Assembly (NCBI GenBank): GCA_902786355.1
Contig: CADABZ010000016.1
Coordinates: forward strand, 1 to 39,322
Source: an uncultured Eubacteriales bacterium
GTDB lineage: Bacteria; Bacillota; Clostridia; Peptostreptococcales; Anaerovoracaceae
Length of the DNA stretch: 39,322 nucleotides
Direction of reading: 5' to 3'
Position 1 is the stretch's first letter; each line of letters begins with the position of its first letter. The notes beneath the pieces were generated by a model, which did not search any database, was not told where the DNA came from, and saw nothing but the letters and a program-made list of their open reading frames with translations. The translations under genes were made by a program, and so were the position numbers. Positions 12,018-39,322 of the stretch are shown piece by piece.

Positions 12018-12022
12018 GCCGC

Positions 12023-12036
12023 TAAATTCTCGTTTA
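12023..12036 (-). repeat. hsdS recombination repeat B
   Basis: Inverted copy of the repeat core (14 of 15 bases of repeat A), just after the hsdS stop. Together with the preceding bases it shares 24 identical bases (12012-12035) with the reverse complement of 13647-13670, i.e. the extended arm of repeat C. Confidence 0.85.
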
Positions 12037-12130
12037 ATTATGATTAACTCTCACCAACGGCGGGAGTGATAACCAACGGAACTGCCGTTGATGTCGTTCT
12101 CTGGAAATACGAAATAAAAGGAGAAACGAC
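12037..12130 (+). promoter_or_regulatory. leader of the recombinase gene with competing hairpins
   Basis: CCAACGG occurs twice (12054-12060 and 12073-12079) and either copy can pair with CCGTTG at 12085-12090 (the first copy extends to CAACGGC/GCCGTTG). Mutually exclusive stems of this type are seen in attenuators. An AAAGGAG site precedes the recombinase ATG. Confidence 0.4.
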
Positions 12131-13117: not shown

Positions 13118-13128
13118 TGGAGGCAATG

Positions 13129-13668
13129 ATGGCTTGGAATAAAGTTAAAGTTGGAGATTTGGGGCGTATTGTTACAGGAAAGACTCCCAAAACAATAGAT
13201 AGGGACAATTACAATGGGCCAATTATGTTTGTAACTCCATCGGATAATATGGAGTCAAAATATATTTACTCTACTGGTAAAACCATTACAGAAAAAGGAA
13301 AGCTTTCTGTGAAAGGAGCTATCGTTCCTGCGGGGGCGGTATGCGTAAGTTGCATTGGGTCTGACTTGGGCAAGGTGGTTATCACTACTGAAGAATGTGT
13401 TACGAATCAGCAAATTAATTCGATTATAGTTGATGTAGACAAATATGATATAGACTTTATTTATTACGCTATGATGATATTGGGAAAAGAATTGAATTTC
13501 CATAGTAAAACATCAACTGCAGTTCCGATAGTGAATAAAAGTAGCTTTTCGTCATATGAAATAAGCTGTCCGACAATAGGAGAGCAGCGAAAAATTGCAT
13601 CAGTATTGTCTGCGCTGGATGACAAGATTGATAATAATGCTCAGATAAACGAGAATTTAGCGGCTTAG
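13129..13668 (+). CDS. silent hsdS N-terminal half (alternative TRD1)
   Basis: About 180 residues (MAWNKVKVGDLGRIVTGKTP onward), a single recognition domain plus conserved helix. It stops at the repeat C junction: NAQINENL, then AA and TAG. The first candidate ATG (13117) overlaps the recombinase stop, but GGAGG at 13119-13123 favours ATG 13129. Inversion between repeats C and D would fuse this half to the TRD2 at 13665-14258 and make a second complete hsdS. As it stands it is a truncated specificity subunit. Confidence 0.85.
   Translation: MAWNKVKVGDLGRIVTGKTPKTIDRDNYNGPIMFVTPSDNMESKYIYSTGKTITEKGKLSVKGAIVPAGAVCVSCIGSDLGKVVITTEECVTNQQINSIIVDVDKYDIDFIYYAMMILGKELNFHSKTSTAVPIVNKSSFSSYEISCPTIGEQRKIASVLSALDDKIDNNAQINENLAA
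13645..13659 (+). repeat. hsdS recombination repeat C
   Basis: ATAAACGAGAATTTA, plus orientation, at the 3' end of the silent N-terminal half. Its extended arm (to 13670) matches repeat B in inverted orientation over 24 bases. Confidence 0.85.
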
Positions 13669-14258
13669 AGGTCTAGGTCAGAGACATCCAATTCGCCAGA
13701 CATTAATCGTGGCAACAAACTATCACGTATATTCTGCAAACGACAGATTTCATCATAGTTATTACGGATTGCAGCGTCCATTGGACCAACGATCTCCTCG
13801 AATTTATCCATGATTTTTCTCGGAGGAATATCAACAGGCATAGAGTTTAGCGCATCGCGGTTTATAGACCCAAAAACAGTTCCTTCTCCGTTAAACACAT
13901 TGAGCTGCTCACGTAGAGCAAACAGTGTATAAAGGATAAAGGACTGGTGTCCGTCGTTTGAACGAATAGCTCCAAGCCCACGGCCGATACAGCAATCCTC
14001 ATAAGCGACATTCAAATCGCCCACAGGGGCCCTGACGCTCATAAGAGCATCTCCTGCTTGAGCCATGCGTTTTGGCTCTGTGGTATAAAGCCTGCGGGTT
14101 GGGAATCTGAAGCCAAATTCAGCCCGCCCTTGGAAGAAGACTGCGCCTACACCATCTTCGTTGTATGTGTCACCTTTGGGGGACTGGCCCATAGTGATAG
14201 TAGCAATATCGGATAATACTACAGGAGTCCATGAATCATCAGCATTATTAATAATCAT
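13665..14258 (-). CDS. silent hsdS C-terminal half (alternative TRD2), inverted
   Basis: Minus-strand frame of 197 residues from the first ATG, ending LRDSLLPRLMSGELDVSDLD L like the active hsdS. The frame stays open upstream through repeat D, encoding INENLQEQAQAIYQHMIINN, so the unit is really a promoterless half-gene awaiting fusion rather than a gene starting at this ATG. It contains one recognition domain (VLSDIATITMGQSPKGDTYN region). Inversion between repeats A and D would place it in frame behind TRD1 of the expressed hsdS. Convergent with and overlapping the preceding half by four bases. Confidence 0.88.
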   Translation of the reverse strand: MIINNADDSWTPVVLSDIATITMGQSPKGDTYNEDGVGAVFFQGRAEFGFRFPTRRLYTTEPKRMAQAGDALMSVRAPVGDLNVAYEDCCIGRGLGAIRSNDGHQSFILYTLFALREQLNVFNGEGTVFGSINRDALNSMPVDIPPRKIMDKFEEIVGPMDAAIRNNYDEICRLQNIRDSLLPRLMSGELDVSDLDL

Positions 14259-14288
14259 GTGCTGATAGATCGCTTGTGCTTGCTCCTG

Positions 14289-14303
14289 TAAATTCTCGTT
14301 TAT
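14289..14303 (-). repeat. hsdS recombination repeat D
   Basis: Inverted full copy of the 15-bp repeat (reads ATAAACGAGAATTTA on the minus strand) at the start of the silent TRD2 half, just ahead of hsdR. Confidence 0.85.
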
Positions 14304-14336
14304 ATCTTAATAAAACACACTAAAGGAGTTAGTACT

Positions 14337-17300
14337 ATGTCAGGATTCTATACTGAAGCTGATTATGAAAACTCAATAATAGAACTTTTTCAGAATATGG
14401 GTTATCGATATGAATATGGCCCGAATATCGAGAGAGATTTCTATGACCCTTTATACGAGACTGAGCTTGTTACGGCACTGCAACGGCTTAATCCTGAGAT
14501 GCCTGACGATGCAATTTCCGATGCCTTATATAAGCTCAAGAACTTCGAGAATGCGGATCTTGTACAGAAGAATGCTGTATTTATGGACTATATACAGCAT
14601 GGTGTTGAGGTCCGTTATTTTGTAAAAGGGGAAGAGCGATCAGGACTGGTATATCTAGTAGATTATAAGAATCCCGACAATAACTCATTCATAGCAGTCA
14701 ATCAGTGGACGTTTGTTGAGAACAGTAACAAGAGACCAGATGTACTTCTTTTTCTTAACGGCCTTCCTGTTGTGCTCATAGAGCTTAAATCTCCTTCAAG
14801 AGAGGAGACTGATGCATCCGAAGCTTATACCCAGATCAGGAACTATATGCATGAGATACCTTCCATGTTTATATATAACTGCATCTGCGTAATGAGTGAT
14901 CATCTTACATCCAAAGCGGGAACTATCACTTCTGGCGAAGACCGCTACATGGAGTGGAAAACCAAAGATGGCAATTACGAGAACACACAGTATGCGCAAT
15001 TTGATACGTTCTTTGAAGGCATATTTGAAAAGAACCGACTGCTGGATATAATCAAGAATTTCATTTGCTTCTCTAACGAGGGCCTGAAGAGATTCAAGAT
15101 CCTTGCAGGTTACCATCAGTACTTTGCGGTAAATAAAGCAATTGAATCCACAAAGCACGCAACGCAGACCGATGGAAAAGGTGGCGTATTTTGGCATACC
15201 CAGGGAAGCGGCAAATCGCTTTCCATGGTTTTCTATGCGCACAGACTACAGGAAGCGCTGGATAGCCCTACGATAGTTGTTCTTACAGACAGAAACGACC
15301 TTGACGATCAGCTTTACGGGCAGTTTGCAAAATGCAAAGATTTCCTAAGACAAGAGCCTATCCATGCTGAAAGTCGAGCTCATTTGAAGTCCCTTCTTGA
15401 TGGCAGGCAGGCGAACGGGATCATCTTTACTACGATGCAGAAATTTGAAGAATCGGAAGAGGCATTATCAGAGCGAAGAAACATCGTAGTGATGGCCGAT
15501 GAGGCTCATCGCGGGCAGTATGGCCTGAAAGAACATATAGATGCAGAGACTGGAAGAATAAAAGTCGGAACTGCAAGAATAATAAGAAACAGTCTCCCTA
15601 ATGCTACATATATAGGATTTACCGGAACGCCTATTTCTATGAAAGATAGGAATACACGCGAGGTCTTCGGAGACTACATCGACGTCTATGATATGACACA
15701 AGCAGTAGAAGATGGAGCTACACGTCCGGTCTACTACGAAAGCCGTGTTATCAATCTAAAACTAGATGAAGCAACACTCAAACTCATTGATGCTGAGTAT
15801 GACCTCATGGCGAACAATGCTGATCCTGATGTCATAGAACGAAGCAAGAAAGAGCTTGGCCAGATGGAGGCGATTCTCGGAAATGAGCAGACAATCGCAT
15901 CTTTGGTAGATGATATCTTGAACCATTACGAGAATTATCGTGAAAATCTCCTGACCGGAAAAGCAATGATTGTCGCATATTCGCGTGCAATCGCACTCAA
16001 GATTTATAACCGCATCCTTGAACTGCGCCCAGGCTGGACAGATAAAGTTGCTGTTGTAATGACAGAAAGCAACAAAGATCCGGAAGAATGGCGCAAGGTC
16101 ATAGGAAACAAACGCCATAGAGATGAGCTGGCTAAGGAATTCAAAGATAATAATAGCCCACTCAAAATTGCTATTGTTGTAGATATGTGGTTGACTGGGT
16201 TCGATGTCCCATCTCTTGCGACTATGTATGTATATAAGCCAATGCAGGGATACAACCTCATGCAGGCAATTGCAAGAGTAAACAGAGTTTTTGAGGATAA
16301 GGAAGGCGGCTTGGTAGTCGATTATGTAGGCATTGCAGCAGCTCTTAAAGAGGCTATGAATGACTACACTTCAAGAGACAAGAAGAACTATGGAGACACC
16401 GATGTTGCAAAAGTGGCATATCCGAAGTTCCTCGAAAAGCTGTCTGTGTGCAGAGATCTATTCCATGGATTTGATTACTCAAAATTCCTTGATGGAACTG
16501 ATCTTGAGAGGTCAAAAGCAATCAGCGGCGCTGTTAACTTCATAGTTGCTGTAGACAAGGAGAGAGAACGCGAGGACTTCCTGAAGGAAGCACTTATGCT
16601 GAAGCAGTCATTGTCACTGTGCTCATCGCTTGTTGAGGAAAGCATGAGAATAGAGGCTGCGTTCTTTGAATCTGTCAGAGTTCTTGTGATGAGACTTGTA
16701 AATCAGGGTGAGGGAAAGAAGATATCTCTCCCGGAAATGAATGAAAGAATAAATGATCTTCTCAAACAGAGTGTTAAGAGCGAAGGTGTTATAAATCTGT
16801 TCTCAGATGTATCGGAAGAATTCTCGCTCTTTGATCCGAAGTTCCTCGAAGAGATATCCAAGATGAAGGAAAAGAACCTGGCGGTTGAACTCCTCAAAAA
16901 ACTCATATCAGAACAGGTACAGATATATAGACGTACAAATGTGGTCAAGTCTGAAAAATTCAGCGAGATCATACAAAGTGCAATGAATAAATATCTCAAT
17001 GGCATGCTGACCAATGAGCAGGTCATACAGGAACTATTGGATCTAGCTAAGCAGATTGCAACAGCGCAGAAAGAGGGAGATAAGCTCGGACTTACAGCAG
17101 ATGAACTTGCTTTCTATGATGCATTGACCAAGCCACAGGCGATTAAGGATTTCTACGAGAACGAGGAGCTGATTGCAATCACTAAAGAACTAGCCGACAC
17201 ACTGCGAAAAAACCGCACAATAGATTGGCAAAAGCGAGACTCTGCCAGAGCTAAGATGCGAATGATGATAAAGAAACTCCTGAAGAAGCATCGCTACCCG

Positions 17301-17504
17301 CCAGAAGGAATGGATTATGCGGTTCAGACAGTCATGACACAGTGTGAGCTCTGGACAGATAACGCTGATTTTACAGAATCAAATAGTAGTTCTGCTGATT
17401 TTACACATGTGAAGCACACAACCTACACATATACTCCTGGTGTAGGGCTGGGAATGGTAGCAGAAAAAGCCACAGAATACCATTCAGGAAAGAGTGAAGA
17501 ATAA
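14337..17504 (+). CDS. hsdR: type I restriction endonuclease subunit HsdR
   Basis: 1055 residues, full length, from ATG 14337 with AAAGGAG. The N-terminal PD-(D/E)xK nuclease has D135, E149 and K151 (VLIELKSPS). The SF2 translocase has Walker A TQGSGKS at 288-294, DEAH at 388-391, and a later helicase motif region near AIARVNRVFED. A helical C-terminal region binds the HsdM/HsdS core. HsdR cleaves unmodified DNA after ATP-driven translocation. It lies outside the invertible segment and so is unaffected by switching. Confidence 0.95.
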   Translation: MSGFYTEADYENSIIELFQNMGYRYEYGPNIERDFYDPLYETELVTALQRLNPEMPDDAISDALYKLKNFENADLVQKNAVFMDYIQHGVEVRYFVKGEERSGLVYLVDYKNPDNNSFIAVNQWTFVENSNKRPDVLLFLNGLPVVLIELKSPSREETDASEAYTQIRNYMHEIPSMFIYNCICVMSDHLTSKAGTITSGEDRYMEWKTKDGNYENTQYAQFDTFFEGIFEKNRLLDIIKNFICFSNEGLKRFKILAGYHQYFAVNKAIESTKHATQTDGKGGVFWHTQGSGKSLSMVFYAHRLQEALDSPTIVVLTDRNDLDDQLYGQFAKCKDFLRQEPIHAESRAHLKSLLDGRQANGIIFTTMQKFEESEEALSERRNIVVMADEAHRGQYGLKEHIDAETGRIKVGTARIIRNSLPNATYIGFTGTPISMKDRNTREVFGDYIDVYDMTQAVEDGATRPVYYESRVINLKLDEATLKLIDAEYDLMANNADPDVIERSKKELGQMEAILGNEQTIASLVDDILNHYENYRENLLTGKAMIVAYSRAIALKIYNRILELRPGWTDKVAVVMTESNKDPEEWRKVIGNKRHRDELAKEFKDNNSPLKIAIVVDMWLTGFDVPSLATMYVYKPMQGYNLMQAIARVNRVFEDKEGGLVVDYVGIAAALKEAMNDYTSRDKKNYGDTDVAKVAYPKFLEKLSVCRDLFHGFDYSKFLDGTDLERSKAISGAVNFIVAVDKEREREDFLKEALMLKQSLSLCSSLVEESMRIEAAFFESVRVLVMRLVNQGEGKKISLPEMNERINDLLKQSVKSEGVINLFSDVSEEFSLFDPKFLEEISKMKEKNLAVELLKKLISEQVQIYRRTNVVKSEKFSEIIQSAMNKYLNGMLTNEQVIQELLDLAKQIATAQKEGDKLGLTADELAFYDALTKPQAIKDFYENEELIAITKELADTLRKNRTIDWQKRDSARAKMRMMIKKLLKKHRYPPEGMDYAVQTVMTQCELWTDNADFTESNSSSADFTHVKHTTYTYTPGVGLGMVAEKATEYHSGKSEE

Positions 17505-24938: not shown

Positions 24939-26054
24939 ATGCAAGATATTATAAAAGATCCTTTTGAAGAATACATAAGACAATCAGACCCTGATAAAAG
25001 AGCACTTGGGTATGCGTGGTATACAGCTATTGGCCTGCAGGATGTTGATGGGCTCAAAACATCTGACTACCTGAGGAAAACGGCCGAGGACAATATCAAT
25101 GGGCATATCACTTTGGCTGATGCAAGCAGACTGATTGAGAGCTATTATGAAGAAACTTCCAATGATGAGCCTGATGACAATAAGGAAGCAGATATAGTAT
25201 CTACGCGGATAGCAAGAATGCTTGCGGAAGATGCATTCACTTTTTCAGTTCCTCAATATATAAGCATTCACAAAAGATTATTTGAGGGCATTTACTCACA
25301 CGCTGGTAAAATACGTGACTACAACATTTCCAAAAAAGAATGGGTACTAGATGGAGATACTGTGCGTTACGGAAACTATTCTGAATTAGAGCAGTTGCTT
25401 GAATACGATATCCGGACAGAAAAGGAATATACGTACAAGTATGATAATATTTCGAACCTGATCAAACATCTTGCAAGATTCATTTCAAGATTATGGCAAA
25501 TACATGCATTCGGAGAAGGAAATACCAGAACTACAGCTGTTTTCTTCATCAAGTATCTGAGATTTGTTGGCTTCGATGTAACTAATGACATATTTGCGAG
25601 ACATTCATGGTATTTCAGGAATGCTCTTGTGAGAGCAAATTATAACAATTATCCTGCAGGTGTAAGTGAGACTACTGAATATCTGGAATTATTCCTGCGA
25701 AATCTACTTCTTAATGAGGATAACGAACTTAAGAACAGATATCTCCATATTAGATGGAACGATGTAAAACAGGACATTGAGGAGACAAAACAGGACATTG
25801 AACCGCAAAAACAGGACATTGAACCATCGAAACAGGACATCTTTATTCCGGATGAAATAGGAAATAAGACAAAACAGCATATTTTGACTTTATTCTATGA
25901 ATATGGGTATGAGAAGTTCTTTGGACGTTCTGAAGTAATGCATCTATTAGGCATCACAGCATCGCCGGCATCAGCCCTGATCAAAAAGATGGTAAATGCA
26001 GGAATAATTTATCCAATCAAAGGTAAAGGGAAAGGCAAGTATTTGTTCAGATAA
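24939..26054 (+). CDS. Fic-domain protein (AMPylase-type) with C-terminal winged helix
   Basis: 371 residues from ATG 24939 behind AAGGAGG. The Fic core spans about 100-260, with active motif HAFGEGNTRT at 189-198 (catalytic H189; the usual HxFx(D/E)GNxR pattern kept). Residues ~270-305 are four KQDIE repeats, a flexible linker. The C-terminal ~60 residues look like a winged helix (RSEVMHLLGITASPASALIK). Fic enzymes transfer AMP or related groups to protein Ser/Thr/Tyr and may act as toxins or regulators. No clear antitoxin gene is adjacent. Confidence 0.9.
   Translation: MQDIIKDPFEEYIRQSDPDKRALGYAWYTAIGLQDVDGLKTSDYLRKTAEDNINGHITLADASRLIESYYEETSNDEPDDNKEADIVSTRIARMLAEDAFTFSVPQYISIHKRLFEGIYSHAGKIRDYNISKKEWVLDGDTVRYGNYSELEQLLEYDIRTEKEYTYKYDNISNLIKHLARFISRLWQIHAFGEGNTRTTAVFFIKYLRFVGFDVTNDIFARHSWYFRNALVRANYNNYPAGVSETTEYLELFLRNLLLNEDNELKNRYLHIRWNDVKQDIEETKQDIEPQKQDIEPSKQDIFIPDEIGNKTKQHILTLFYEYGYEKFFGRSEVMHLLGITASPASALIKKMVNAGIIYPIKGKGKGKYLFR
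25767..25847 (+). repeat. four tandem 21-bp repeats inside the Fic gene
   Basis: AAACAGGACATT recurs at 21-bp intervals (about 25767, 25788, 25809, 25830), encoding KQDIE-type heptads. Copy number could change by slippage without breaking the frame, altering linker length. Confidence 0.8.
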
Positions 26055-28963: not shown

Positions 28964-29622
28964 TTTTGAGCGGGGGTCGTCAGAAACTGACGAGGTTTTG
29001 AACGAAAAATCAAGGCTTTCAGCATATGACAAATCGAAAAACGTTGAAATATCAACGAAAAAACTAACCAGTTTCTGAACCGACTTTTGAATGTGTTTTA
29101 GCGAAAATAAGGGCGAAAGAAAGGAGTACCGGCTGCAGACAGGACTCAGGAAGGAGCCAACAAACAGCAGCCAAAGGACTCCGTGAAACGGACCTTGAAA
29201 ACTGAATACACATTCATCAGGAACTTTCTCTGAGATATAGGGCTAATCCCTTGAGCATGTGAGGTCGAAGCGCGATGACCCGTAAGGAGAGCGAACAACT
29301 ATCTGGACCCTGAAGGCGGACAGCAACCGCAAGAGTGCGATGACAATCTCAGAGGACAATGATACTTCCGTCCAGTCACAGCCCTGAAGGCATCTTCAGG
29401 ATCACGCAATGAGGGCGGCTCGGGGAGACACCCGGAGGAGGCTAACAGCCTCATGAGGAAGAGTAGCTGCCTTCCGCCTGAATGATTTCCCGAACAGACC
29501 TGGGGGAGCCGAGGACAAATACAGGTGCTGGATATAAACAGAGCAGCAGGAGACCTAACACTTTTCCTGCTGCTCTGTGGCGAAAGATACATAGACAATC
29601 TGCGGTAAAGGAGAAAACATAT
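28964..29622 (+). ncRNA. 659-base gene-free region, candidate large structured RNA
   Basis: No coding frame is convincing. Visible elements: hairpin TCGTCAG-AAA-CTGACGA near 28977; CGTTGA-AATA-TCAACG near 29042; a boxA-like GACCTTGAAAACTGAATA at 29192-29209; a long-range 9-bp stem CTCTGAGAT/ATCTCAGAG (29228-29236 with 29346-29354) closing a ~127-nt domain; CCTGAAG-GCAT-CTTCAGG near 29383; CGGCTC/GAGCCG (near 29415 and 29505) enclosing GAGGCT-AAC-AGCCTC; and a perfect 14-bp hairpin at 29538-29551/29565-29578. The density of helices suggests a structured RNA, possibly of the large ornate class seen in Firmicutes phages and plasmids, but I cannot assign a family. Confidence 0.55.
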
Positions 29623-29934
29623 ATGAATACGGTACCAATGAGAGAACCTGATCCGAATGATGACATGGGAGTGACTATCGACGCGATACTCACAAGACCG
29701 GCACTCAGGATCAGATATATGAAAGGTGACTTCGATGACTGGAAGTCGATCATAGGAGATGAGGATCTTGAATACGGGATCAGGCAGCTCCCGGAGAAGG
29801 AGCAGGCTATCCTGGAGAAATACTATCTGCAGCAGAAGACGCTTCTGGATATCTCGAGAGATCTGGATATACCTGCGAGCGTCATCGGCGGATACCTCAT
29901 AGCGATAGAGACGAGGCTGATAATCTATGCCTAG
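29623..29934 (+). CDS. small sigma-region-4-like protein
   Basis: 103 residues from ATG 29623 (AAAGGAG upstream). The C-terminal half IRQLPEKEQAILEKYYLQQK followed by DISRDLDIPASVIGGYL is a sigma-70 region 4-type helix-turn-helix. The N-terminal part is acidic. First gene of a tight cluster leading to the serine recombinase, overlapping the next gene by eight bases. Likely a regulator of the cluster. Confidence 0.65.
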   Translation: MNTVPMREPDPNDDMGVTIDAILTRPALRIRYMKGDFDDWKSIIGDEDLEYGIRQLPEKEQAILEKYYLQQKTLLDISRDLDIPASVIGGYLIAIETRLIIYA

Positions 29935-30466
29935 AAGGAAGAAAAAGCGGGCCCATGTGCAGTCTCCCTGCTTCAGGATAAGGCGGGGAGACATATACCT
30001 TGCAGACCTTGGGACCAAGGCGGATGTTATCGGGAGCGAACAATTTGGGGTGCGTCCTGTTCTGATCACGCAGTGCAATCGTCAGAATGACAGATCGACG
30101 ACATACATCATCGTCATAATCACAAGCGAGATCAAAAAGACCAGAATGGACACGCACGTGATACTTCCGATGGTGAAGGGTCTGTCCAGGCAGTCAATGG
30201 CGTGCTGTGAGCAAAGGTTCACCATCGGCCGCCTGAGACTTCTGGAGTACAGGGGACACCTGGATAATAAAACAATGAAGAGAATAACGAGGGCCTGCCG
30301 CCTGGCGGAGGCTCAGGACAGAGATAAAATGCCGCGCTTCTATAAAGGAAGGCGGCGTTTTTCATATGGAAAGGCCGGTAATTATAGTGGAAAAATACGA
30401 AAAGTCAATTCTGCAAAGCATGGAACTCGCATGCTTGGCAAGAGCGAGAGCCGAGGGCTTAATTAG
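29927..30466 (+). CDS. PemK/MazF-like protein
   Basis: 179 residues. The MazF/PemK fold covers about 15-125: RRGDIYLADLGTK, the FGVRPVLIT strand, TYIIVIITSEIKK and a C-terminal helix NKTMKRITRA. MazF-type toxins are sequence-specific mRNA endonucleases. No typical MazE antitoxin is visible next to it; similar orphan genes sit upstream of serine recombinases in clostridial elements, possibly as regulators. The last ~45 residues run across an intrinsic terminator and the next gene, so the functional protein may effectively end near residue 130. Confidence 0.8.
   Translation: MPRRKKKRAHVQSPCFRIRRGDIYLADLGTKADVIGSEQFGVRPVLITQCNRQNDRSTTYIIVIITSEIKKTRMDTHVILPMVKGLSRQSMACCEQRFTIGRLRLLEYRGHLDNKTMKRITRACRLAEAQDRDKMPRFYKGRRRFSYGKAGNYSGKIRKVNSAKHGTRMLGKSESRGLN
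30331..30362 (+). terminator. intrinsic terminator inside the MazF-like frame
   Basis: GCCGCgCTTC pairs with GAAGGCGGC (9 bp plus one bulged G; 30331-30340 with 30348-30356), followed by GTTTTT. It lies within the 3' coding part of the MazF-like gene and just ahead of the next start, so it may limit transcription into the recombinase. Confidence 0.7.
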
Positions 30467-34939: not shown

Positions 34940-35917
34940 ATGGATAACCAGTTTGAAAAGCAGAGTGAGCAGAAAGAAGAGTTCCGCAATTCATTTCTTG
35001 ATGGCAATGAGTTGATTGAAGAGGCGATAGCAAACTTCTATAAGGAAAACAATCAGGAAACCTTTATAAACATACTTGAAACAATACGTCACAGAATGCA
35101 TGCAGACGGCCATTTCATTTTCCCTGTTCTGACGGATGAAAATGATCCTGAAAGATTCGCTTTCTGCACTATCCAGTCGAATGATGGAAAAGTATGGCAG
35201 GCAGCATTTACTTCGCAGGAAGAATTTGAAAAGGGAGAAAAGGCTACTGTGATTTCTTATTTCATAGACAGCGCGTTAAAATCCTGCCTTGATACAGATA
35301 ATGCTGGAATAATCATTAACCCTTGGGGACAGGCATTTTTGCTGGAAAAAGGACTGATTGAAGATATTTTCAGAGCAGATGGAGACACAGAATATTCAGT
35401 CCCGGATGATCAGATAACAGCAGAATTACTTGAGGATGGCTCTTTCCTGAAAAAAGCAACAGAGATATGCAACAGGAACTCCACTCAACTTAATATGATC
35501 AAGCTGCTTAGGATCCTTCGTGACAGTTATGTGTGGGTCCCTTGTAATGCAATATTAAGCGATGCAGATTACGCAATGATTGAAAAAATGGCAAAGGACG
35601 CAGAGTCCGGAGAAGGTCTGGATTCACTTAAGGGGCAGCAATTTACTACAATGGATAATGTTCGTCTGGTACCGGACATCCTGCAGAATGGCGACGCATT
35701 CTTTTTCCCTGTATTTACCAGTGCTGAAGAAATGGGTGAATATGGCGATCATTTTTCAAAAGTTGAGAAGCATTTCCTTGAAACGATAGTTCTAGCAAGG
35801 AACAACGAGAAAGATGTGACCGGAATCGTTATCAACGCATTCTCAGAACCATTTGTTGTTAATAAAGAACTGTTTGAACTGATAGAAGGCATGGAGTCTT
35901 CACTGAATGCAGACTAG
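34940..35917 (+). CDS. SseB-family protein with two tandem domains
   Basis: 325 residues containing two copies of the SseB N-terminal-type fold: about 20-150 (FIFPVLTDENDPERFAF, GIIINPWGQAFLL) and about 185-320 (FFFPVFTSAEEMGEYGDHF, GIVINAFSEPFVV). The paired FPVxT and GIxIN-x-x-x-x-x-F motifs mark the duplication. SseB-like domains are widespread in Lachnospiraceae accessory regions; the molecular role is unclear. It is the last gene before the first tRNA cassette. Confidence 0.8.
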   Translation: MDNQFEKQSEQKEEFRNSFLDGNELIEEAIANFYKENNQETFINILETIRHRMHADGHFIFPVLTDENDPERFAFCTIQSNDGKVWQAAFTSQEEFEKGEKATVISYFIDSALKSCLDTDNAGIIINPWGQAFLLEKGLIEDIFRADGDTEYSVPDDQITAELLEDGSFLKKATEICNRNSTQLNMIKLLRILRDSYVWVPCNAILSDADYAMIEKMAKDAESGEGLDSLKGQQFTTMDNVRLVPDILQNGDAFFFPVFTSAEEMGEYGDHFSKVEKHFLETIVLARNNEKDVTGIVINAFSEPFVVNKELFELIEGMESSLNAD

Positions 35918-35956
35918 AAAAGCAAAATAACGGTATAAATTAAACTACAGGTTGAA

Positions 35957-35985
35957 TTTACAAGCCGTTTTACGTGTGCTATATT
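35957..35985 (+). promoter_or_regulatory. promoter of XRE-tRNA cassette 1
   Basis: TTTACA (35957-35962), a 17-bp spacer and TATATT (35980-35985) with an upstream TGTG-type extended -10. The upstream segment AATTAAACTACAGGT is shared with cassette 2 and may be an operator or UP element. Confidence 0.75.
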
Positions 35986-36029
35986 CTATGTGTAAATAAG
36001 ACCGAAAGGTCAGAAAGGAAATTATATTG

Positions 36030-36155
36030 ATGACTTACAGACTCATTTGCGTACAGAACTTTATATGCGAACAAGATCTCCACATCATAGATAAGGAGAA
36101 TGGTTTTGTGTGCAAATATGAGACAGTAGATAGAGAGGTGCGGCAACCAGATTAA
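36030..36155 (+). CDS. leader ORF 1 (41 residues)
   Basis: ATG 36030, with AGAAAGGAA upstream, encodes MTYRLICVQNFICEQDLHII to a TAA at 36153-36155. The FVCKYET segment (residues 26-32) is shared with leader ORF 2 although the rest has diverged. The matching DNA of ~20 bases is almost identical between copies, and includes the antiterminator arm. It may be a leader peptide whose translation is sensed, and need not be a functional protein. Confidence 0.55.
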   Translation: MTYRLICVQNFICEQDLHIIDKENGFVCKYETVDREVRQPD

Positions 36156-36221
36156 AGCCGGACCAGTTAGATGACGACTTCATATCCGCTTGTCTCATAT
36201 ACGGGATAAGCGGTTTTTTTT
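36116..36221 (+). promoter_or_regulatory. predicted attenuator 1: antiterminator arm and intrinsic terminator
   Basis: The terminator is an 11-bp stem CCGCTTGTCTC (36186-36196) with GGGATAAGCGG (36203-36213), followed by eight T's. ATATGAGACA at 36116-36125 (leader ORF codons 30-32) is the exact reverse complement of TGTCTCATAT at 36191-36200, i.e. the terminator's 5' arm and loop. Pairing these 10 bases would block the terminator and let transcription reach the XRE gene and tRNAs. Confidence 0.7.
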
Positions 36222-36236
36222 ATACGGGAGGAAAAC

Positions 36237-36548
36237 ATGGAAACAACAGGCAACAAAAAGCTGCCGACTATCGATCTTAAGAAAACAGGAAAGAATATCC
36301 TGAAGATGAGAAAAGAAGCAGGAATCTCCGTAAGGGAACTGCAGGTGATGTTCGGGTTCAGAAGCCCGCAGGCCATCTATAACTGGCAGAACGGAACCAG
36401 CCTGCCTACTGTCGATAACCTTATCATCCTTGCTTTGATCCTTAGGACTACCATCGATGAGCTCATCGCAATTGAAGGCGAAGATTCTGATGAGCAGGGC
36501 GATTCAGAATTATATCCACAAATAAAAATATTTCATACGGTCTCTTAG
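36237..36548 (+). CDS. XRE-type regulator 1, fused to the tRNA array
   Basis: 103 residues. The HTH at about 18-75 (NILKMRKEAGISVRELQVMF then SPQAIYNWQNG as recognition helix, LPTVDNLIILA) is a Cro/CI-type fold. It is a close paralogue of the regulator at 38011-38328. GGGAGG lies seven bases before ATG 36237, immediately after the attenuator T-run. The stop codon (36546-36548) is inside the acceptor stem of tRNA-Asn, so RNase P processing at 36538/36539 would remove the stop from the mRNA. Confidence 0.85.
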   Translation: METTGNKKLPTIDLKKTGKNILKMRKEAGISVRELQVMFGFRSPQAIYNWQNGTSLPTVDNLIILALILRTTIDELIAIEGEDSDEQGDSELYPQIKIFHTVS

Positions 36549-36614
36549 CTCAACAGGCAGAGCGGCGCCCTGTTAAGGCGACGGTTGCAGGTTCGATTCC
36601 TGCAGAGACCGCCA
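36539..36614 (+). tRNA. tRNA-Asn(GTT)
   Basis: Complete cloverleaf with encoded CCA. Anticodon loop CTGTTAA, 7-bp acceptor GGTCTCT/AGAGACC. Overlaps the end of XRE gene 1 by ten bases. Confidence 0.95.
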
Positions 36615-36618
36615 ATAT

Positions 36619-36693
36619 GGTCTCTTCGTCTAAAGGTAGGACACAGGGTTTTCATCCCTGTAATGCTGAGTTCAATTCTCGCAGAGATCACCA
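36619..36693 (+). tRNA. tRNA-Glu(TTC)
   Basis: Complete cloverleaf with encoded CCA, anticodon loop TTTTCAT. Confidence 0.95.
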
Positions 36694-36697
36694 TTAA

Positions 36698-36772
36698 AGC
36701 CCTTTCGTCTAACTGGAAGGATGCCGGATCCTGATTCCGGAGGTGTGAGTTCGATTCTTGCAGGGGCTGCCA
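36698..36772 (+). tRNA. tRNA-Gln(CTG), C at position 33
   Basis: Complete cloverleaf with encoded CCA. Anticodon loop TCCTGAT has C instead of the near-universal U33. All stems are intact. Confidence 0.85.
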
Positions 36773-36775
36773 GAT

Positions 36776-36849
36776 AGCCCTTTCGTCTAACGGCAGGACA
36801 TCGGACTTTGACTCCGGCAGTGCAGGTTCGAGTCCTGCAGGGGCTGCCA
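36776..36849 (+). tRNA. tRNA-Gln(TTG)
   Basis: Complete cloverleaf with encoded CCA, anticodon loop CTTTGAC. Acceptor stem identical to the preceding Gln tRNA. Confidence 0.95.
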
Positions 36850-36853
36850 ACAT

Positions 36854-36928
36854 GGTCCGTTAGTATAACGGCTACTATACCCGGTTGTCAGCCGGGAGCA
36901 ACGGGTTCGATTCCCGTACGGACCGCCA
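36854..36928 (+). tRNA. tRNA-Asp(GTC)
   Basis: Complete cloverleaf with encoded CCA, anticodon loop TTGTCAG. Confidence 0.95.
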
Positions 36929-36933
36929 ATATT

Positions 36934-37007
36934 ATCCTGGTAGTTCAATGGCAGAACAACGGTCTCCAAAACCGCAGATGAGAGTTCGAATCTTTCTCAG
37001 GGTGCCA
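36934..37007 (+). tRNA. tRNA-Trp(CCA)
   Basis: Anticodon loop CTCCAAA; acceptor ATCCTGG/TCAGGGT with G-U pairs; encoded CCA. The T-stem contains weak pairs. Confidence 0.9.
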
Positions 37008-37008
37008 T

Positions 37009-37085
37009 ACGCACTTAACTCAGTGGTTCAGAGTACCCGTCTGATACGCGGGCGGTCCGCAGTTCGAATCTGCGAGTGCGTACCA
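37009..37085 (+). tRNA. tRNA-Ile(GAT)
   Basis: Anticodon loop CTGATAC, acceptor ACGCACT/AGTGCGT, encoded CCA; one base after the Trp tRNA. Confidence 0.95.
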
Positions 37086-37089
37086 ATAA

Positions 37090-37165
37090 GGTCTCCTCGT
37101 CTAAAGGGCAGGACGCCAGACTCTCACTCTGGAAATGCAGGGTTCAAGTCCCGCGGAGATCACCA
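37090..37165 (+). tRNA. tRNA-Glu(CTC)
   Basis: Anticodon loop CTCTCAC, acceptor GGTCTCC/GGAGATC, encoded CCA. Second Glu isoacceptor in the array. Confidence 0.95.
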
Positions 37166-37172
37166 ATGTTAT

Positions 37173-37248
37173 GTGGGTCGTAGCTTAATGGTAAAGCACC
37201 GGATTGTGGCTCCGGTCAATGCAGGTTCAAGTCCTGTCGATCCTCCCA
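37173..37248 (+). tRNA. tRNA-His(GTG)
   Basis: Anticodon loop TTGTGGC. The His-specific extra G at -1 faces C73; positions 1 and 72 are a T-T mismatch. Encoded CCA. Confidence 0.9.
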
Positions 37249-37253
37249 GTTAT

Positions 37254-37330
37254 GAGCACGTGTCCCAGTGGTCTAAGGAGGCGGGTTGCAACCCCGTTGT
37301 TCGCCGGTTCGAATCCAGCCGTGCTCTCCA
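37254..37330 (+). tRNA. tRNA-Cys(GCA)
   Basis: Anticodon loop TTGCAAC, acceptor GAGCACG/CGTGCTC, encoded CCA. One C-A mismatch in the T-stem. Confidence 0.92.
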
Positions 37331-37334
37331 ATAT

Positions 37335-37410
37335 GGTAAAGTAGCTCCAATGGTAGAGCGCAGGATTGAAGTTCCTGGCGGTGCTGGTTCGAGCCCAGCC
37401 TTTACCACCA
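37335..37410 (+). tRNA. tRNA-Phe(GAA)
   Basis: Anticodon loop TTGAAGT, acceptor GGTAAAG/CTTTACC, encoded CCA. Confidence 0.95.
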
Positions 37411-37414
37411 ATAT

Positions 37415-37493
37415 AGTGAAGTAGCTCAGCAGGTTAGAGCGGCGGCCTTATAAGCCGTGTCAGTCGCTGGTTCAAGTCCAGCCTTCACTACCA
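37415..37493 (+). tRNA. tRNA-Ile(TAT)
   Basis: Anticodon loop CTTATAA gives TAT, which reads AUA directly; most bacteria use a lysidine-modified CAT tRNA instead. The variable loop is seven bases rather than the usual four or five. Encoded CCA. Last tRNA of array 1. Confidence 0.9.
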
Positions 37494-37518
37494 ATTACTA
37501 ATTAAACTACAGGTATAA

Positions 37519-37548
37519 TTTACAACTGATCAGATGCTGTGCTATATT
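37519..37548 (+). promoter_or_regulatory. promoter of XRE-tRNA cassette 2
   Basis: TTTACA (37519-37524), an 18-bp spacer and TATATT (37543-37548) with TGTG upstream of the -10. The preceding AATTAAACTACAGGT matches cassette 1. A 6-bp hairpin GAAGGG/CCCTTC follows in the leader near 37562-37578. Confidence 0.72.
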
Positions 37549-37640
37549 CACAGAGGATAAGGAAGGGACAGGCCCTTCAGCGTAGCAGTACGTAGTAACA
37601 AACACTGATGATCAGAAACAGAAAGAGGAATTCAAAACAA

Positions 37641-37772
37641 ATGTTATATCTAAGATTTGCATCAAAGAGCATGAATACAGAAAGAAAACCTCAGGGTATT
37701 GACCTGATGGGACGCCTCTTTGTGTGCAAATACGAGACAGGAAAGATCGGAGTACGGCATGAAATAAGTTAG
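37641..37772 (+). CDS. leader ORF 2 (43 residues)
   Basis: ATG 37641 (AGAGGAA upstream) to TAG 37770-37772, encoding MLYLRFASKSMNTERKPQGI then LMGRLFVCKYET and on. Shares FVCKYET and its nucleotide sequence with leader ORF 1, in the same place relative to the terminator. Probably a leader peptide. Confidence 0.55.
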   Translation: MLYLRFASKSMNTERKPQGIDLMGRLFVCKYETGKIGVRHEIS

Positions 37773-37837
37773 CCGTGCAGATTTTACAGGATACAGAATT
37801 CAGGTCCGCTTGTCTCGTAAGGGATGAGCGGTTTTTT
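37731..37837 (+). promoter_or_regulatory. predicted attenuator 2: antiterminator arm and intrinsic terminator
   Basis: The terminator stem CCGCTTGTCTC (37806-37816) pairs with GGGATGAGCGG (37821-37831), followed by six T's. TACGAGACA at 37731-37739 is the exact reverse complement of TGTCTCGTA at 37811-37819. Compared with attenuator 1, a T-A pair has become C-G while pairing is kept, and the codon change (TAT to TAC) is synonymous. Confidence 0.7.
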
Positions 37838-37869
37838 CTTAACGAAAAACGCATCAGAGAGGACAAGAA

Positions 37870-37962
37870 ATGACAGAAATCTTGGGCAAGTTTTATTCAG
37901 ATAAACGATTTGCCGAATCATTAGAAGTATTAGATCAACCAAACGATTATAAGGCCAGCTAG
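37870..37962 (+). CDS. second leader ORF of cassette 2 (30 residues)
   Basis: MTEILGKFYSDKRFAESLEV to TAG 37960-37962, with AGAGAGG upstream. It has no counterpart in cassette 1. Its stop codon abuts the hairpin that covers the regulator's ribosome site, so translation of this ORF could control that structure. Confidence 0.5.
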   Translation: MTEILGKFYSDKRFAESLEVLDQPNDYKAS

Positions 37963-38003
37963 CCGGTTCTCCTTTCCGGCTAAGCATGGCCGGAAAAGGA
38001 GAG
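37961..38003 (+). promoter_or_regulatory. ribosome-site-sequestering hairpin ahead of XRE regulator 2
   Basis: TTCTCCTTTCCGGC (37967-37980) can pair with GCCGG at 37989-37993 and AAAAGGAGAG at 37994-38003, one bulged A, masking the Shine-Dalgarno sequence. A competing smaller hairpin AGCCGG/CCGGCT (37961-37966 with 37976-37981) would leave it free. The mutually exclusive folds resemble a translational attenuator. Confidence 0.65.
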
Positions 38004-38010
38004 AAGTGCA

Positions 38011-38328
38011 ATGAGCATGAGAATGGTCGCAACTTGGGTTGTCCCAGTAATCGACCTTAGGGCAACCGGACAGAACATCAAGACTTTGAGGAAGGCCGCA
38101 GGTCTCTCCGTAAGAGACCTCCAGGAGATCCTCGGATTCACCAACCCACAGGCGATCTACAAGTGGCAGAATGGTGACAGCTTGCCATCAATCGACAACC
38201 TTGTGATCCTCGCAGCTGTTCTCGGAGTCACCATCGACGAGATCCTCGTAACTGATGGTGATGAGACCAGCGATGGTATGAGTGATAAGGATAGTCTTGC
38301 AATAACAGGCATTACTGTTCAATGGTGA
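38011..38328 (+). CDS. XRE-type regulator 2, paralogue of regulator 1
   Basis: 105 residues. The HTH at about 20-75 (NIKTLRKAAGLSVRDLQEIL, NPQAIYKWQNGDSLPSIDNL) aligns without gaps to the regulator at 36237-36548, and both end in an acidic tail. Probably binds DNA at a related operator, for example the shared promoter upstream segment, giving auto- or cross-regulation of both cassettes (inference). AAAGGAGAG precedes ATG 38011. An 8-bp hairpin (38348-38355/38361-38368) separates it from the tRNAs. Confidence 0.85.
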   Translation: MSMRMVATWVVPVIDLRATGQNIKTLRKAAGLSVRDLQEILGFTNPQAIYKWQNGDSLPSIDNLVILAAVLGVTIDEILVTDGDETSDGMSDKDSLAITGITVQW

Positions 38329-38347
38329 CGACCATTGAATGATGCAA

Positions 38348-38368
38348 CCGGCTCCGAACTGGAGCCGG
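38348..38368 (+). other. stem-loop between regulator 2 and tRNA array 2
   Basis: CCGGCTCC-GAACT-GGAGCCGG, 8 bp, no U-run. It may protect the regulator mRNA 3' end after tRNA processing. Confidence 0.55.
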
Positions 38369-38374
38369 ATATAA

Positions 38375-38450
38375 GTGGCATTGGTGTAACGGCCAAGCAT
38401 ATCAGTCTTCCAAACTGAAGGTTCGGGTTCGAATCCCGGATGCCGCTCCA
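38375..38450 (+). tRNA. tRNA-Gly(TCC)
   Basis: Anticodon loop CTTCCAA, acceptor GTGGCAT/ATGCCGC, encoded CCA. First tRNA of array 2; followed by a 50-base spacer with no visible feature. Confidence 0.95.
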
Positions 38451-38500
38451 ATCGTCATAAGGAATCTTATAGTTTACGAGTCCTTCCTTGTGACAAGTAT

Positions 38501-38576
38501 GTGACAGTAGTTCAGCGGGCAGAATATCGGCTTGCCAAGTCGAAGGTCACGGGTTCAAACCCCGTCTGTCACTCCA
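38501..38576 (+). tRNA. tRNA-Gly(GCC)
   Basis: Anticodon loop TTGCCAA, acceptor GTGACAG/CTGTCAC, encoded CCA. Confidence 0.95.
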
Positions 38577-38579
38577 TGT

Positions 38580-38658
38580 GCTCCAGTATCCCAATCCCGG
38601 TAGAGGAAACGGAATGAGAGTCCGTACAGTACAGGTTCGAGTCCTGTCTGGAGCACCA
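38580..38658 (+). tRNA. tRNA with Leu anticodon (GAG) and short variable loop
   Basis: Acceptor GCTCCAG/CTGGAGC, 17-base anticodon arm with loop ATGAGAG, five-base variable loop, encoded CCA. Leu tRNAs normally have a long variable arm, absent here. Same body as the tRNA at 39042-39120. Confidence 0.8.
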
Positions 38659-38664
38659 ATTTAT

Positions 38665-38770
38665 GGGCTTGTAGCTTAGAGGGGAAAGCACCTGCCTTGC
38701 AAGCAGGGGAGCGTGGGTTCCCTAAAGGACTTGGCGCTGCGCGCCGGCGCAAGTCCCACCAGGTCCACCA
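38665..38770 (+). tRNA. tRNA-Ala(TGC) with a 30-nt insertion in the T-loop
   Basis: 106 bases. Acceptor, D-arm and anticodon arm (loop CTTGCAA) are normal. The T-stem GTGGG (38713-38717) and CCCAC (38755-38759) enclose 37 bases instead of seven. The insert carries a GGCGC-TGC-GCGCC hairpin and a GGACTTG that can pair with CAAGTCC. Encoded CCA. Confidence 0.8.
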
Positions 38771-38777
38771 ATAATAT

Positions 38778-38855
38778 CGGGGCGTAGCTCAGTTTGGCTA
38801 GAGCGTCTGATTTGGGATCAGAAGGTCGAGAGTTCAAGTCTCTCCACTCCGACCA
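38778..38855 (+). tRNA. tRNA-Pro(TGG)
   Basis: Anticodon loop TTTGGGA; acceptor CGGGGCG/CACTCCG with one C-A mismatch; encoded CCA. Confidence 0.92.
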
Positions 38856-38860
38856 CATAT

Positions 38861-38944
38861 CGGCAGGTGGCACAGCGGCGACTGCAGGCGGCTGTAACCC
38901 GCTCACACAGAAACACGTAGGTTCGAGTCCTACCCTGCCGACCA
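38861..38944 (+). tRNA. tRNA-Tyr(GTA)
   Basis: Anticodon loop CTGTAAC, acceptor CGGCAGG/CCTGCCG, encoded CCA. Long variable region of about 13 bases but without an obvious internal stem. Confidence 0.9.
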
Positions 38945-38948
38945 ACAT

Positions 38949-39036
38949 GGATGGTTACCGAAATGGTTATACCGGCGCGGTCTTGAAAACCGATGTGGCG
39001 AAAGCCCTGTGGGTTCGAATCCTACACCATCCGCCA
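38949..39036 (+). tRNA. tRNA-Ser(TGA)
   Basis: Anticodon loop CTTGAAA, long variable arm with GGC-GAAA-GCC, acceptor GGATGGT/ACCATCC, encoded CCA. Confidence 0.93.
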
Positions 39037-39041
39037 ATCAT

Positions 39042-39120
39042 GCTCCAGTATCCCAATCCTGGTAGAGGAAATGGCCTCAGACACCATCAAGTACAGGTTC
39101 GAGTCCTGTCTGGAGCACCA
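39042..39120 (+). tRNA. tRNA with Leu anticodon (CAG) and short variable loop
   Basis: Nearly identical body to the tRNA at 38580-38658, but with a different anticodon arm (loop CTCAGAC, one C-A mismatch at its base). Five-base variable loop. Encoded CCA. Confidence 0.8.
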
Positions 39121-39124
39121 ACAT

Positions 39125-39199
39125 ATCTCGTTCGTCTAAAGCAAAGGACGCGGAGCTACGGACTCCGAAATGTGGGTTGGATTCCTACACGGGATACCA
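39125..39199 (+). tRNA. tRNA-Arg(ACG) with swapped 19-56 pair
   Basis: Anticodon loop CTACGGA, acceptor ATCTCGT/ACGGGAT, encoded CCA. The D-loop has G18-C19 and the T-loop is TTGGATT (G56), so the usual G19-C56 tertiary pair appears as C19-G56. Confidence 0.85.
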
Positions 39200-39200
39200 T

Positions 39201-39275
39201 GATCTTCTCGTCTAACGGTAGGATACCGGACTTTTAATCCGGGAGATCTGAGTTCGAATCTCAGGGGGATCACCA
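39201..39275 (+). tRNA. tRNA-Lys(TTT)
   Basis: Anticodon loop CTTTTAA, acceptor GATCTTC/GGGGATC, encoded CCA. Confidence 0.95.
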
Positions 39276-39279
39276 ATAT

Positions 39280-39322
39280 ACTCCATTAGTTCAACGGATA
39301 GAACATCGGTCTTCTAAACCGA
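39280..39322 (+). tRNA. tRNA-Arg(TCT), cut by the window end
   Basis: Acceptor 5' strand, D-arm and complete anticodon arm (loop CTTCTAA) are present; the 3' half is outside the window. The array evidently continues. Confidence 0.85.

Follow-up and report, generated by a model that had tools for sequence, protein, structure and literature searches.

Paired tRNA arrays on a clostridial contig lie behind leader peptides enriched in the amino acids of their own tRNAs

The window analysed here, a stretch of 39,322 nucleotides, is the whole of contig C16 (CADABZ010000016.1) in the genome of an uncultured Eubacteriales bacterium (GCA_902786355.1), which comprises 2.5 Mb in 63 contigs. Two cassettes occupy the last 3.4 kb of this window, each consisting of an operator box, a promoter, a leader open reading frame (ORF), a terminator, a gene for an XRE regulator and an array of tRNA genes. 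This order of parts had been proposed in a sequence-only reading of the window and was borne out, as was the count given there of 23 tRNAs for 17 amino acids (ARAGORN, Rfam and one read by eye). The leader ORFs, described as having about 42 codons, were found to have 41 and 43, both with the motif FVCKYET. Both terminators begin with CCGCTTGTCTC, in agreement with the common 5′ arm that had been claimed, and the XRE proteins, which had been called paralogues, show 54 % identity where their first 90 residues align. The features of the two cassettes are listed below.

35940–35956, + strand: cassette 1, operator-like palindrome TTAAACTACAGGTTGAA
35957–35985, + strand: cassette 1, promoter TTTACA-17-TATATT with TG extended −10
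36030–36155, + strand: cassette 1, leader ORF of 41 codons, MTYRLICVQNFICEQDLHIIDKENGFVCKYETVDREVRQPD; 23 of 40 post-Met residues are amino acids of array 1
36116–36126, + strand: cassette 1, 5′ strand of the antiterminator, ATATGAGACAG; its partner at the terminator is TTGTCTCATAT
36186–36213, + strand: cassette 1, intrinsic terminator, then a T run
36237–36548, + strand: cassette 1, XRE regulator; its stop codon lies within the tRNA-Asn gene
36539–37493, + strand: array 1, with Asn, Glu(TTC), Gln(CTG), Gln(TTG), Asp, Trp, Ile(GAT), Glu(CTC), His, Cys, Phe and Ile(TAT)
37502–37518, + strand: cassette 2, operator-like box TTAAACTACAGGTATAA
37519–37548, + strand: cassette 2, promoter TTTACA-18-TATATT with TG extended −10
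37641–37772, + strand: cassette 2, leader ORF of 43 codons, MLYLRFASKSMNTERKPQGIDLMGRLFVCKYETGKIGVRHEIS; 23 of 42 post-Met residues are amino acids of the visible array 2
37731–37741, + strand: cassette 2, 5′ strand of the antiterminator, TACGAGACAGG; its partner is CTTGTCTCGTA
37806–37831, + strand: cassette 2, intrinsic terminator, then a T run
37870–37962, + strand: 30-codon ORF between terminator and XRE gene, its 3′ part resembling the end of rtcB; likely an rtcB remnant
38011–38328, + strand: cassette 2, XRE regulator
38375–39322, + strand: array 2, running off the contig, with Gly(TCC), Gly(GCC), Leu(GAG), Ala, Pro, Tyr, Ser(TGA), Leu(CAG), Arg(ACG), Lys(TTT) and Arg(TCT, cut)

ARAGORN called 21 of the tRNAs; tRNA-Ala was added by Rfam, and tRNA-Arg(TCT), cut by the contig end from 39281, was read by eye. 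The tRNA-Ala (38665–38767), missed by ARAGORN and scored at 54.4 bits by Rfam, carries an insert of about 30 nt in its T arm. Array 1 serves N, E, Q, D, W, I, H, C and F, and array 2, as far as visible, G, L, A, P, Y, S, R and K, the latter content being a lower bound because the contig ends inside the array. A consensus scan of 35800–39322 detected the two cassette promoters as the sole sigma-70-like promoters on the + strand, a result that is no evidence when taken alone (5 sites on both strands versus a shuffle mean of 4.1), and it detected no internal + strand promoter within the tRNA arrays, as judged from sequence. The latter result touches on the second condition set in the sequence-only reading, under which the tRNAs would be transcribed from internal promoters only, independently of the leaders. 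Terminator-like sites numbered 8 on both strands, versus a shuffle mean of 2.9. The possibility that the array tRNAs are recent copies of chromosomal tRNAs was rejected, since comparison with a chromosomal tRNA of the same anticodon, possible for 15 of 21 (the loci analysed contained no counterpart of the other 6), gave identities of 63–79 %; the array tRNAs would therefore be old or foreign.

Judged by its parts and their complementarity, the leader is built like a ribosome-mediated attenuator. In both window cassettes a short leader ORF with a ribosome binding site lies between promoter and terminator, and codons near the end of the ORF are complementary to the 5′ arm of the terminator. The difference between the antiterminator pairs of cassette 1 and cassette 2 is compensatory, and the same logic is found with different sequences in other clades (CATATAAGATAAG/CTTATCTTATGTG in locus L301 and GTGTGCAGAT/ATCTGTACAC in the phage-like contig L153). 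When 29 leaders were aligned, 90.6 % of the antiterminator cells were paired, versus 24.5–57 % when the strands were slid, and the corresponding values for the terminator were 100 % versus at most 48.5 %. Three antiterminator pairs had changed on both sides, a number reached by 10 of 500 shuffles. The antiterminator score was 21.7 for the leaders themselves versus 16.0 after codon shuffling; of 119 leaders, 66 ranked within the top 5 % of their own codon shuffles and 40 within the top 1 %. The idea of attenuation, which had been advanced from the window alone, is strengthened by this conserved pairing.

A leader ORF with terminator and antiterminator was found in 145 of 205 XRE units, which gave 128 distinct peptides. 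These units include repeated loci (190 are distinct by the sequence around the XRE start), and detection took the best combination of terminator, ORF and antiterminator, such that some leaders may be wrong or missed; those of L045 and L046 were seen by eye but not accepted. Single-base codon changes among leaders of equal length gave synonymous/nonsynonymous counts of 114/187 for the cassette-1 type (8 leaders), 22/29 for the cassette-2 type (4 leaders) and 12/15 for the MATVNFA type (4 leaders), and constitute weak evidence for translation, as the pairs are non-independent. No Rfam match at the gathering score was obtained over the window leaders or those of L063, L090, L080, L146 and L153, and a T-box riboregulator was rejected on that ground. 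Chance duplication of the cassettes was also rejected, given that the same architecture occurs in several families.

The leader peptides show an enrichment, at the amino-acid level, for the residues served by the tRNA array downstream of each. The match was defined as the share of post-Met leader residues that belong to the amino acids of the leader's own array, including tRNAs between terminator and XRE gene. A leader and at least two tRNA species were present in 75 of the 205 units, which supplied 62 distinct peptides in 18 clusters (<50 % identity). The mean match across these clusters was 0.415 with own arrays versus 0.306 with permuted arrays (P=5e–6, the floor of 200,000 permutations), and the own match exceeded the mean of other leaders in 18 of 18. 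The same leader DNA read in the other two frames gave matches of 0.27 and 0.26, while the codons upstream of the antiterminator strand, taken by themselves, gave 0.470 versus 0.310. Among 57 leader clusters, the own leader stood at a mean percentile of 0.87 (18 clusters, Fisher P=1.4e–9).

The idea of a match arose from leaders of the window, L080, L081 and L090 type. Nine clusters were therefore treated as held out, their leaders being <50 % identical to all those seen when the idea was formed, and they gave 0.389 versus 0.283 (P=1.3e–4), with 9 of 9 above. Two of the nine (L195 and L143 8823) were viewed before the formal test but after the idea had been recorded, and the start of the L143 8823 leader was set by hand to an inner ATG, which is the start in its homologue L290. 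Clustering at 40 % identity gave P=5e–6 for 11 clusters and P=0.008 for the 5 held-out ones.

Swaps of leaders between cassettes of the same locus gave a similar picture: the summed own matches beat the swapped ones in 13 of 13 cassette pairs, which are of five kinds (seven pairs being of the window's type) and include some single leaders that do no better on their own array. For the window itself the values were 0.57 and 0.55 for own arrays versus 0.28 and 0.31 when swapped. Codons for Ser and Ala are absent from the leader of cassette 1; both kinds occur in that of cassette 2. The clearest leaders contain stretches of array residues. In L214, 18 of the 19 residues of NKQFNNKQFMQFCKNQKCF are in the set of the array that follows (Q,C,F,K,K,Q,N). 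In L281, this holds for all 19 residues of FRQHEQEKERCWHRQERQF (array W,Q,K,E,E,F,C,Q,R,R,H), and in the Ruminococcus albus plasmid pRUMAL01 (L195) for all 17 of SYDDYQCFFSFSFDWQD (array D,Q,C,F,Q,W,Y,S); these three examples were obtained or analysed after the idea was recorded. In L143, all 19 residues of CKQHRHEEKRFWFCQERQF are in the set of the array W,Q,K,E,E,F,C,Q,R,K,R,H, and in L300, 12 of the 17 of CYSYQYEQQLVQEYEQS are in that of Y,C,Q,Q,S. Leaders of operons with rtcB only (21 clusters, 939 residues) are high in C, R, S, H and Y and low in V, D and A relative to an assumed background. The earlier proposal that the switch answers to tRNA supply is supported by this correspondence between leader residues and the tRNAs of the same cassette.

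The main rival to be considered is that the leader senses any slowing of elongation, including that caused by ribosome antibiotics, in the manner of ermC and toiL, and that its composition is incidental. The architecture of an upstream ORF (uORF) with alternative RNA structures is the same in such systems, and uORFs that respond to multiple antibiotics exist (PMC12121999). The trn array of Anabaena, the closest functional relative, responds to translation antibiotics (PMC10272220), and leaders that head rtcB without any array share the layout described here. A general sensor does not, however, predict a match to the leader's own array that persists beyond permutation, held-out and within-locus swap controls, and it is considered unlikely.

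It was of interest to see where relatives of the XRE proteins reside. Those of the window belong to HTH_3 (Pfam), are 103–105 aa long and contain little beyond one HTH domain. A search of named genomes returned 531 relatives, the best 80 of which were kept and correspond to 78 loci. In 66 of these 78 the XRE gene lies beside rtcB and/or at least one tRNA gene (19 with rtcB and tRNA, 23 with rtcB only, 24 with tRNA only, 12 with neither); 42 have rtcB, 43 at least one tRNA in the unit, 33 at least two tRNAs and 66 a leader. The sequence-only reading had made its case depend on homologues of the XRE genes generally lying next to tRNA arrays, and these results, in which the neighbour is a tRNA and/or rtcB, did not contradict it. 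A second sample, drawn from one family and reached from genome G416 (whose place is L213), covered 397 genomes, 60 of them at E≤1e–25; the 60 loci analysed cover 61 of its 65 places, the low-scoring G618, G911 and G619 having been left out. There, 42 of 60 loci have the XRE gene beside rtcB and/or tRNA (29 with rtcB, 25 with tRNA), namely 12 with both, 17 with rtcB only, 13 with tRNA only and 18 with neither; 43 have a leader and 19 at least two tRNAs. Neither neighbour was present for any of the 8 lowest-scoring XREs (<95 bits). Both sets of counts use the best-scoring XRE per locus, and 5 loci are common to the two; of the 55 one-family loci outside the named set, 37 have rtcB and/or tRNA.

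In the named-genome search the XRE was found, among others, in Mogibacterium metagenome-assembled genomes and in Parablautia intestinalis, Fusicatenibacter, Blautia glucerasea and Eubacterium ruminantium; the E. ruminantium locus has a leader but neither rtcB nor tRNA. The XRE is also carried by plasmid pRUMAL01 of Ruminococcus albus 7 and by viral contigs, one of which is 253 kb long. Both leader and array are present in the culturable P. intestinalis, B. glucerasea and R. albus 7. In the viral set, rtcB or tRNA was found in 9 of 18 loci with a scored XRE, and scans of viral contigs with single proteins gave 0, 1, 3 and 2 loci and no additional contigs. Seven of 391 genomes in a class-wide sample, the genome of the window included, were positive at E≤1e–18; elsewhere the module therefore seems patchy. 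The full layout is seen in L063, where rtcB, XRE, 15 tRNAs, XRE and 13 tRNAs follow one another and the two arrays together serve 19 amino acids. Among 35 plasmid records, 33 are L. salivarius megaplasmids with a more distant XRE; in the one megaplasmid analysed (L196), no tRNA was detected in 16 kb and no leader was found.

Several other features of these loci were observed. GOLLD RNA (RF02032) lies at 3571–4006 of L153, within a viral-contig tRNA array that has a member of the XRE family, and overlaps a predicted tRNA-Arg. At approximately 6230–6860 of L082, leader and XRE gene precede neither rtcB nor tRNA but an ORF in which a DVH motif like that of phosphoesterases was seen by eye; this is possibly another cargo of the switch. 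In L045 (the same stretch as L128), as at 37870–37962 of the window, rtcB has seemingly been reduced to a remnant, by eye, with leader and XRE gene kept. For the window ORF, 0 of 500 shuffles matched as well in the 3′ part; the 5′ part, with 68 of 500, was not significant.

A number of results weigh against reading the leaders as attenuators matched to their own arrays. An earlier, smaller match test, which counted only the tRNAs after the XRE gene, gave P=5e–6, 8e–5 and 0.17 for 11, 8 and 3 clusters, and so lost significance with the loosest clustering. For the large arrays of the cassette-2 type the match is weak (percentile 0.50). The isoacceptor level gave no clear signal: Ser isoacceptors show no difference, as 42 of 67 Ser codons are AGY with AGY-only arrays and 23 of 38 with UCN-only arrays, and the Leu CUN/UUR, Arg CGN/AGR and Ile AUY/AUA isoacceptors lean in the expected direction, on few codons. 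Neither rtcB nor tRNA is nearby in 12 of 78 and 18 of 60 XRE loci, and rtcB stands without tRNA in 23 of 78 and 17 of 60, where self-matching is inapplicable; the 78 loci, as the best 80 of 531 relatives, are in addition biased to close homologues. Covariation of the antiterminator in the leader alignment is modest, and the terminator has no pair changed on both sides. By equilibrium folding with a ribosome mask, residues in the set were not concentrated in the predicted stall windows (17 of 46 inside versus 397 of 951 outside).

Folding of the RNA adds to these points. At equilibrium, the terminator is the favoured structure of free full-length RNA for 23 of 23 leaders, and only for 6 of 23, cassette 1 among them but not cassette 2, does stalling lower it below 0.5. 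A kinetic mode of switching would therefore be required, which is the usual view of attenuators. With the 3′ arm of the terminator absent, the antiterminator had P>0.5 at some stall position in 25 of 25 leaders, a result that is partly circular, in that complementarity was the criterion by which antiterminators had been selected, and a ribosome masked at the stop codon covers them. On the protective 1:2 pairing by which an attenuator terminates when its leader is not translated, the folds point both ways: for cassettes 1 and 2, free full-length RNA shows the antiterminator region paired with early codons, as read from the fold, but nascent RNA without a ribosome adopts the antiterminator in 13 of 25 leaders.

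A 17-base palindrome, with the family consensus TTAWACYACRRGTWTAA, ends at about −35. Among the 105 leaders with a box score of at least 9, the distance from the end of this operator to the extended −10 is 19, 20 or 21 bases in 63, 25 and 9 cases, together 97 of 105. Scores of at least 9, 10 and 11 were reached by 105, 83 and 34 of 120 leaders, versus 234, 44 and 1 of 600 shuffled sequences. Lambda CI occupies about this position when activating PRM, but the position would suit a repressor as well. Binding of the XRE protein to this palindrome, directly next to the −35 of its own promoter, is probable and would give a feedback loop of either sign. These data bear on the alternative that the XRE protein is itself the sensor and main switch, e.g. 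an autorepressor released by stress, like TrcR, with the leader terminator setting only a low basal level. The conserved palindrome at near-fixed spacing is in its favour, as is the retention of the XRE gene where rtcB looks decayed (L045, by eye). This alternative is nonetheless very unlikely, as the protein consists of little besides a single HTH domain, in which no sensor domain was recognised, and as the leader ORF, the antiterminator and the array matching would be left unexplained.

The genome holds four cassettes, two in the window and one each on contigs C41 and C12. The former is a shorter relative of cassette 1, with leader, XRE gene, Asn, Trp and Ile; the latter contig, presumably chromosomal, carries a leader, rtcB, an XRE gene, a tRNA-like RNA and a DUF2828/DUF7788 protein gene. 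The terminator pattern CCGCTTRTCTC-N3-10-GRGRYRRGCGG has exactly four sites in the 2.5 Mb genome, all of them in cassettes, and none in the reversed control, and an operator–promoter pattern occurs at three of the four cassettes (that of C41 excepted), with none in reversed controls. Since these patterns are common to the arrays and the rtcB operon (locus L010; PF01139, E=1.5e–55), a single regulatory module appears to run both the mobile-element arrays and the RNA ligase operon. The module is not specific to mobile elements, because leader and XRE gene also head rtcB operons. In locus L107, a stretch 97.7 % identical to cassette 1 begins at the operator and extends over 1465 bases to the end of the contig, whereas the adjoining recombinase is 70 % identical; the cassette therefore seems to transfer as one unit. 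The tRNA-like RNA, at 9558–9659 of L010 and approximately 5390–5560 of L043, directly precedes the DUF2828/DUF7788 gene in the rtcB operon. Its outer stem is AGATGCC/GGCATCT, after which L043, unlike L010, has a T run. By eye, it resembles a Y RNA with a tRNA-like module beside a Ro60-like gene.

The upstream part of the window looks like an integrative or conjugative element, with genes for a TraG-like ATPase, a CHAP protein, type I restriction, an integrase and a large serine recombinase; a TrbL match was weak and below the family cut-off. The type I restriction region (9341–17504) has one longer and two shorter specificity genes, one inverted, around the integrase (12131–13117), and looks like a phase-variable specificity locus. 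A PemK/MazF-family toxin gene (29927–30463), with the Rfam pemK RNA motif upstream (29356–29456), lies approximately 6 kb before the cassettes. A group II intron match (RF00029) is situated at the contig start (10–97), and a Fic/DOC protein (24939–26051) matches the PADLOC candidate family PDC-S72 (E=2.6e–173).

Constitutive arrays that aid translation of the element's own genes would be the traditional view of phage tRNAs, termed the most widely accepted hypothesis (PMC10264068). For the present cassettes such a role is highly improbable: the arrays cover most of the code (17 amino acids in the window, 19 in L063) and lie behind a terminator type that is common to an rtcB operon.

Taken together, the data make it likely that loss of specific tRNAs is the signal, and that each cassette is a sensor of tRNA loss coupled to its cure. 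The promoter would yield a short transcript, the leader ORF of which consists to a large extent of codons for the tRNAs of the array behind it. With these tRNAs plentiful, the ribosome would move into the antiterminator strand near the end of the ORF and beyond it, the terminator would form and the array would stay off. If one or more of the tRNAs were cleaved or lost, the ribosome would stall upstream, the freed strand would pair with the 5′ arm of the terminator, and RNA polymerase would read through into the XRE gene and the matching tRNAs, and in many relatives RtcB too. The two cassettes on the mobile element would divide the amino acids between them, and the likely setting is attack on tRNA by toxins or defence nucleases. 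RtcB and replacement tRNAs would fit the repair or replacement of damaged tRNAs, because RtcB is an RNA ligase and the Salmonella rtcBA operon responds to tRNA fragments (PMC7790460).

On balance, we favour the wider interpretation that this is a self-addressed switch, in which a test peptide is written in the codons of exactly the tRNAs of its array, and loss of any one frees the whole set, often with RtcB. Two such switches would divide nearly the whole code, and Clostridia, phages, plasmids and conjugative elements would possess a modular, immune-like and presumably protective response to tRNA-destroying weapons. If arrays are attenuated by leaders made of their own codons, the sequence itself would state the purpose of an array, i.e. 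the replacement of those tRNAs when they are lost. The tRNA-depletion hypothesis would be directly testable, a sequence signature would be at hand for finding such systems, spare tRNAs and RtcB repair would be linked in one Clostridia regulon, and the leaders would be ready-made sensors of individual tRNA loss.

By analogy, the closest known system in purpose is trn/TrcR of Anabaena PCC 7120, in which a silent megaplasmid array of 26 tRNAs and chromosomal rtcB are under the control of TrcR and are induced by translation stress (PMC10272220). One regulon there joins tRNA array and rtcB, as the common box and terminator pattern suggest here. TrcR, a small autoregulated DNA-binding protein, is a ribbon-helix-helix repressor acting at promoters, and the discussion of that paper places it in cyanobacteria and two cyanophages (PMC10272220); the window regulators are HTH_3 XRE proteins, and not of this family. 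The terms 'leader', 'attenuat' and 'XRE' have no occurrence in its main text (PMC10272220). The sequence-only reading did not recognise a dedicated attenuated regulator in front of each array as described; one amendment is needed, as a regulator that acts on a stress-responsive, otherwise silent array on a mobile replicon, and on rtcB too, is known. Among the titles and abstracts listed by searches of open-licence PubMed Central, none dealt with tRNA arrays under attenuation, leader peptides of rtcB or this XRE.

RtcR-type RNA repair operons express the RtcB ligase on tRNA damage, and in L010, too, a tRNA-like RNA and a DUF2828/DUF7788 gene lie beside rtcB. In the RtcR type, tRNA halves bind a CARF-domain sigma-54 activator, whereas here an XRE gene and a translated attenuator are present, with sigma-70-like promoters in the window; loss of working tRNA, and not fragments, would therefore be sensed. 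Phage tRNA arrays are similar in that mobile tRNA clusters have been proposed to replace tRNAs destroyed by anticodon nucleases (PMC10264068, PMC11555353). The words 'promoter', 'leader' and 'RtcB' are absent from the main text of the first of these, and its relevant passages mention no array regulator (PMC10264068). A survey of jumbo phages reports that tRNAs are supplemented by RNA ligases, RtcB among them (PMC7824862).

The leaders themselves resemble attenuators of the trp/his type, whose short ORF contains regulatory codons matching the operon's own supply and in which transcription continues when translation is slow (PMC1183508). Those attenuators supply one amino acid and use its codons, whereas here the product is tRNAs and the leader codes for many amino acids. 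Regular leader peptides in Firmicutes have been reported for hisS genes, in a source with no occurrence of 'rtcB' or 'tRNA gene' (PMC2965389). In toiL and erm-type sensors, likewise, uORF translation controls alternative RNA structures, but toiL is proposed to act on translation initiation and on Rho-dependent termination of a toxin–antitoxin transcript, with no tRNA array in the account given (PMC12121999). Inducible tRNA arrays and leader-peptide attenuation are thus known separately; what would be new in the cassettes described here is an attenuator whose product is the very tRNAs that it senses.

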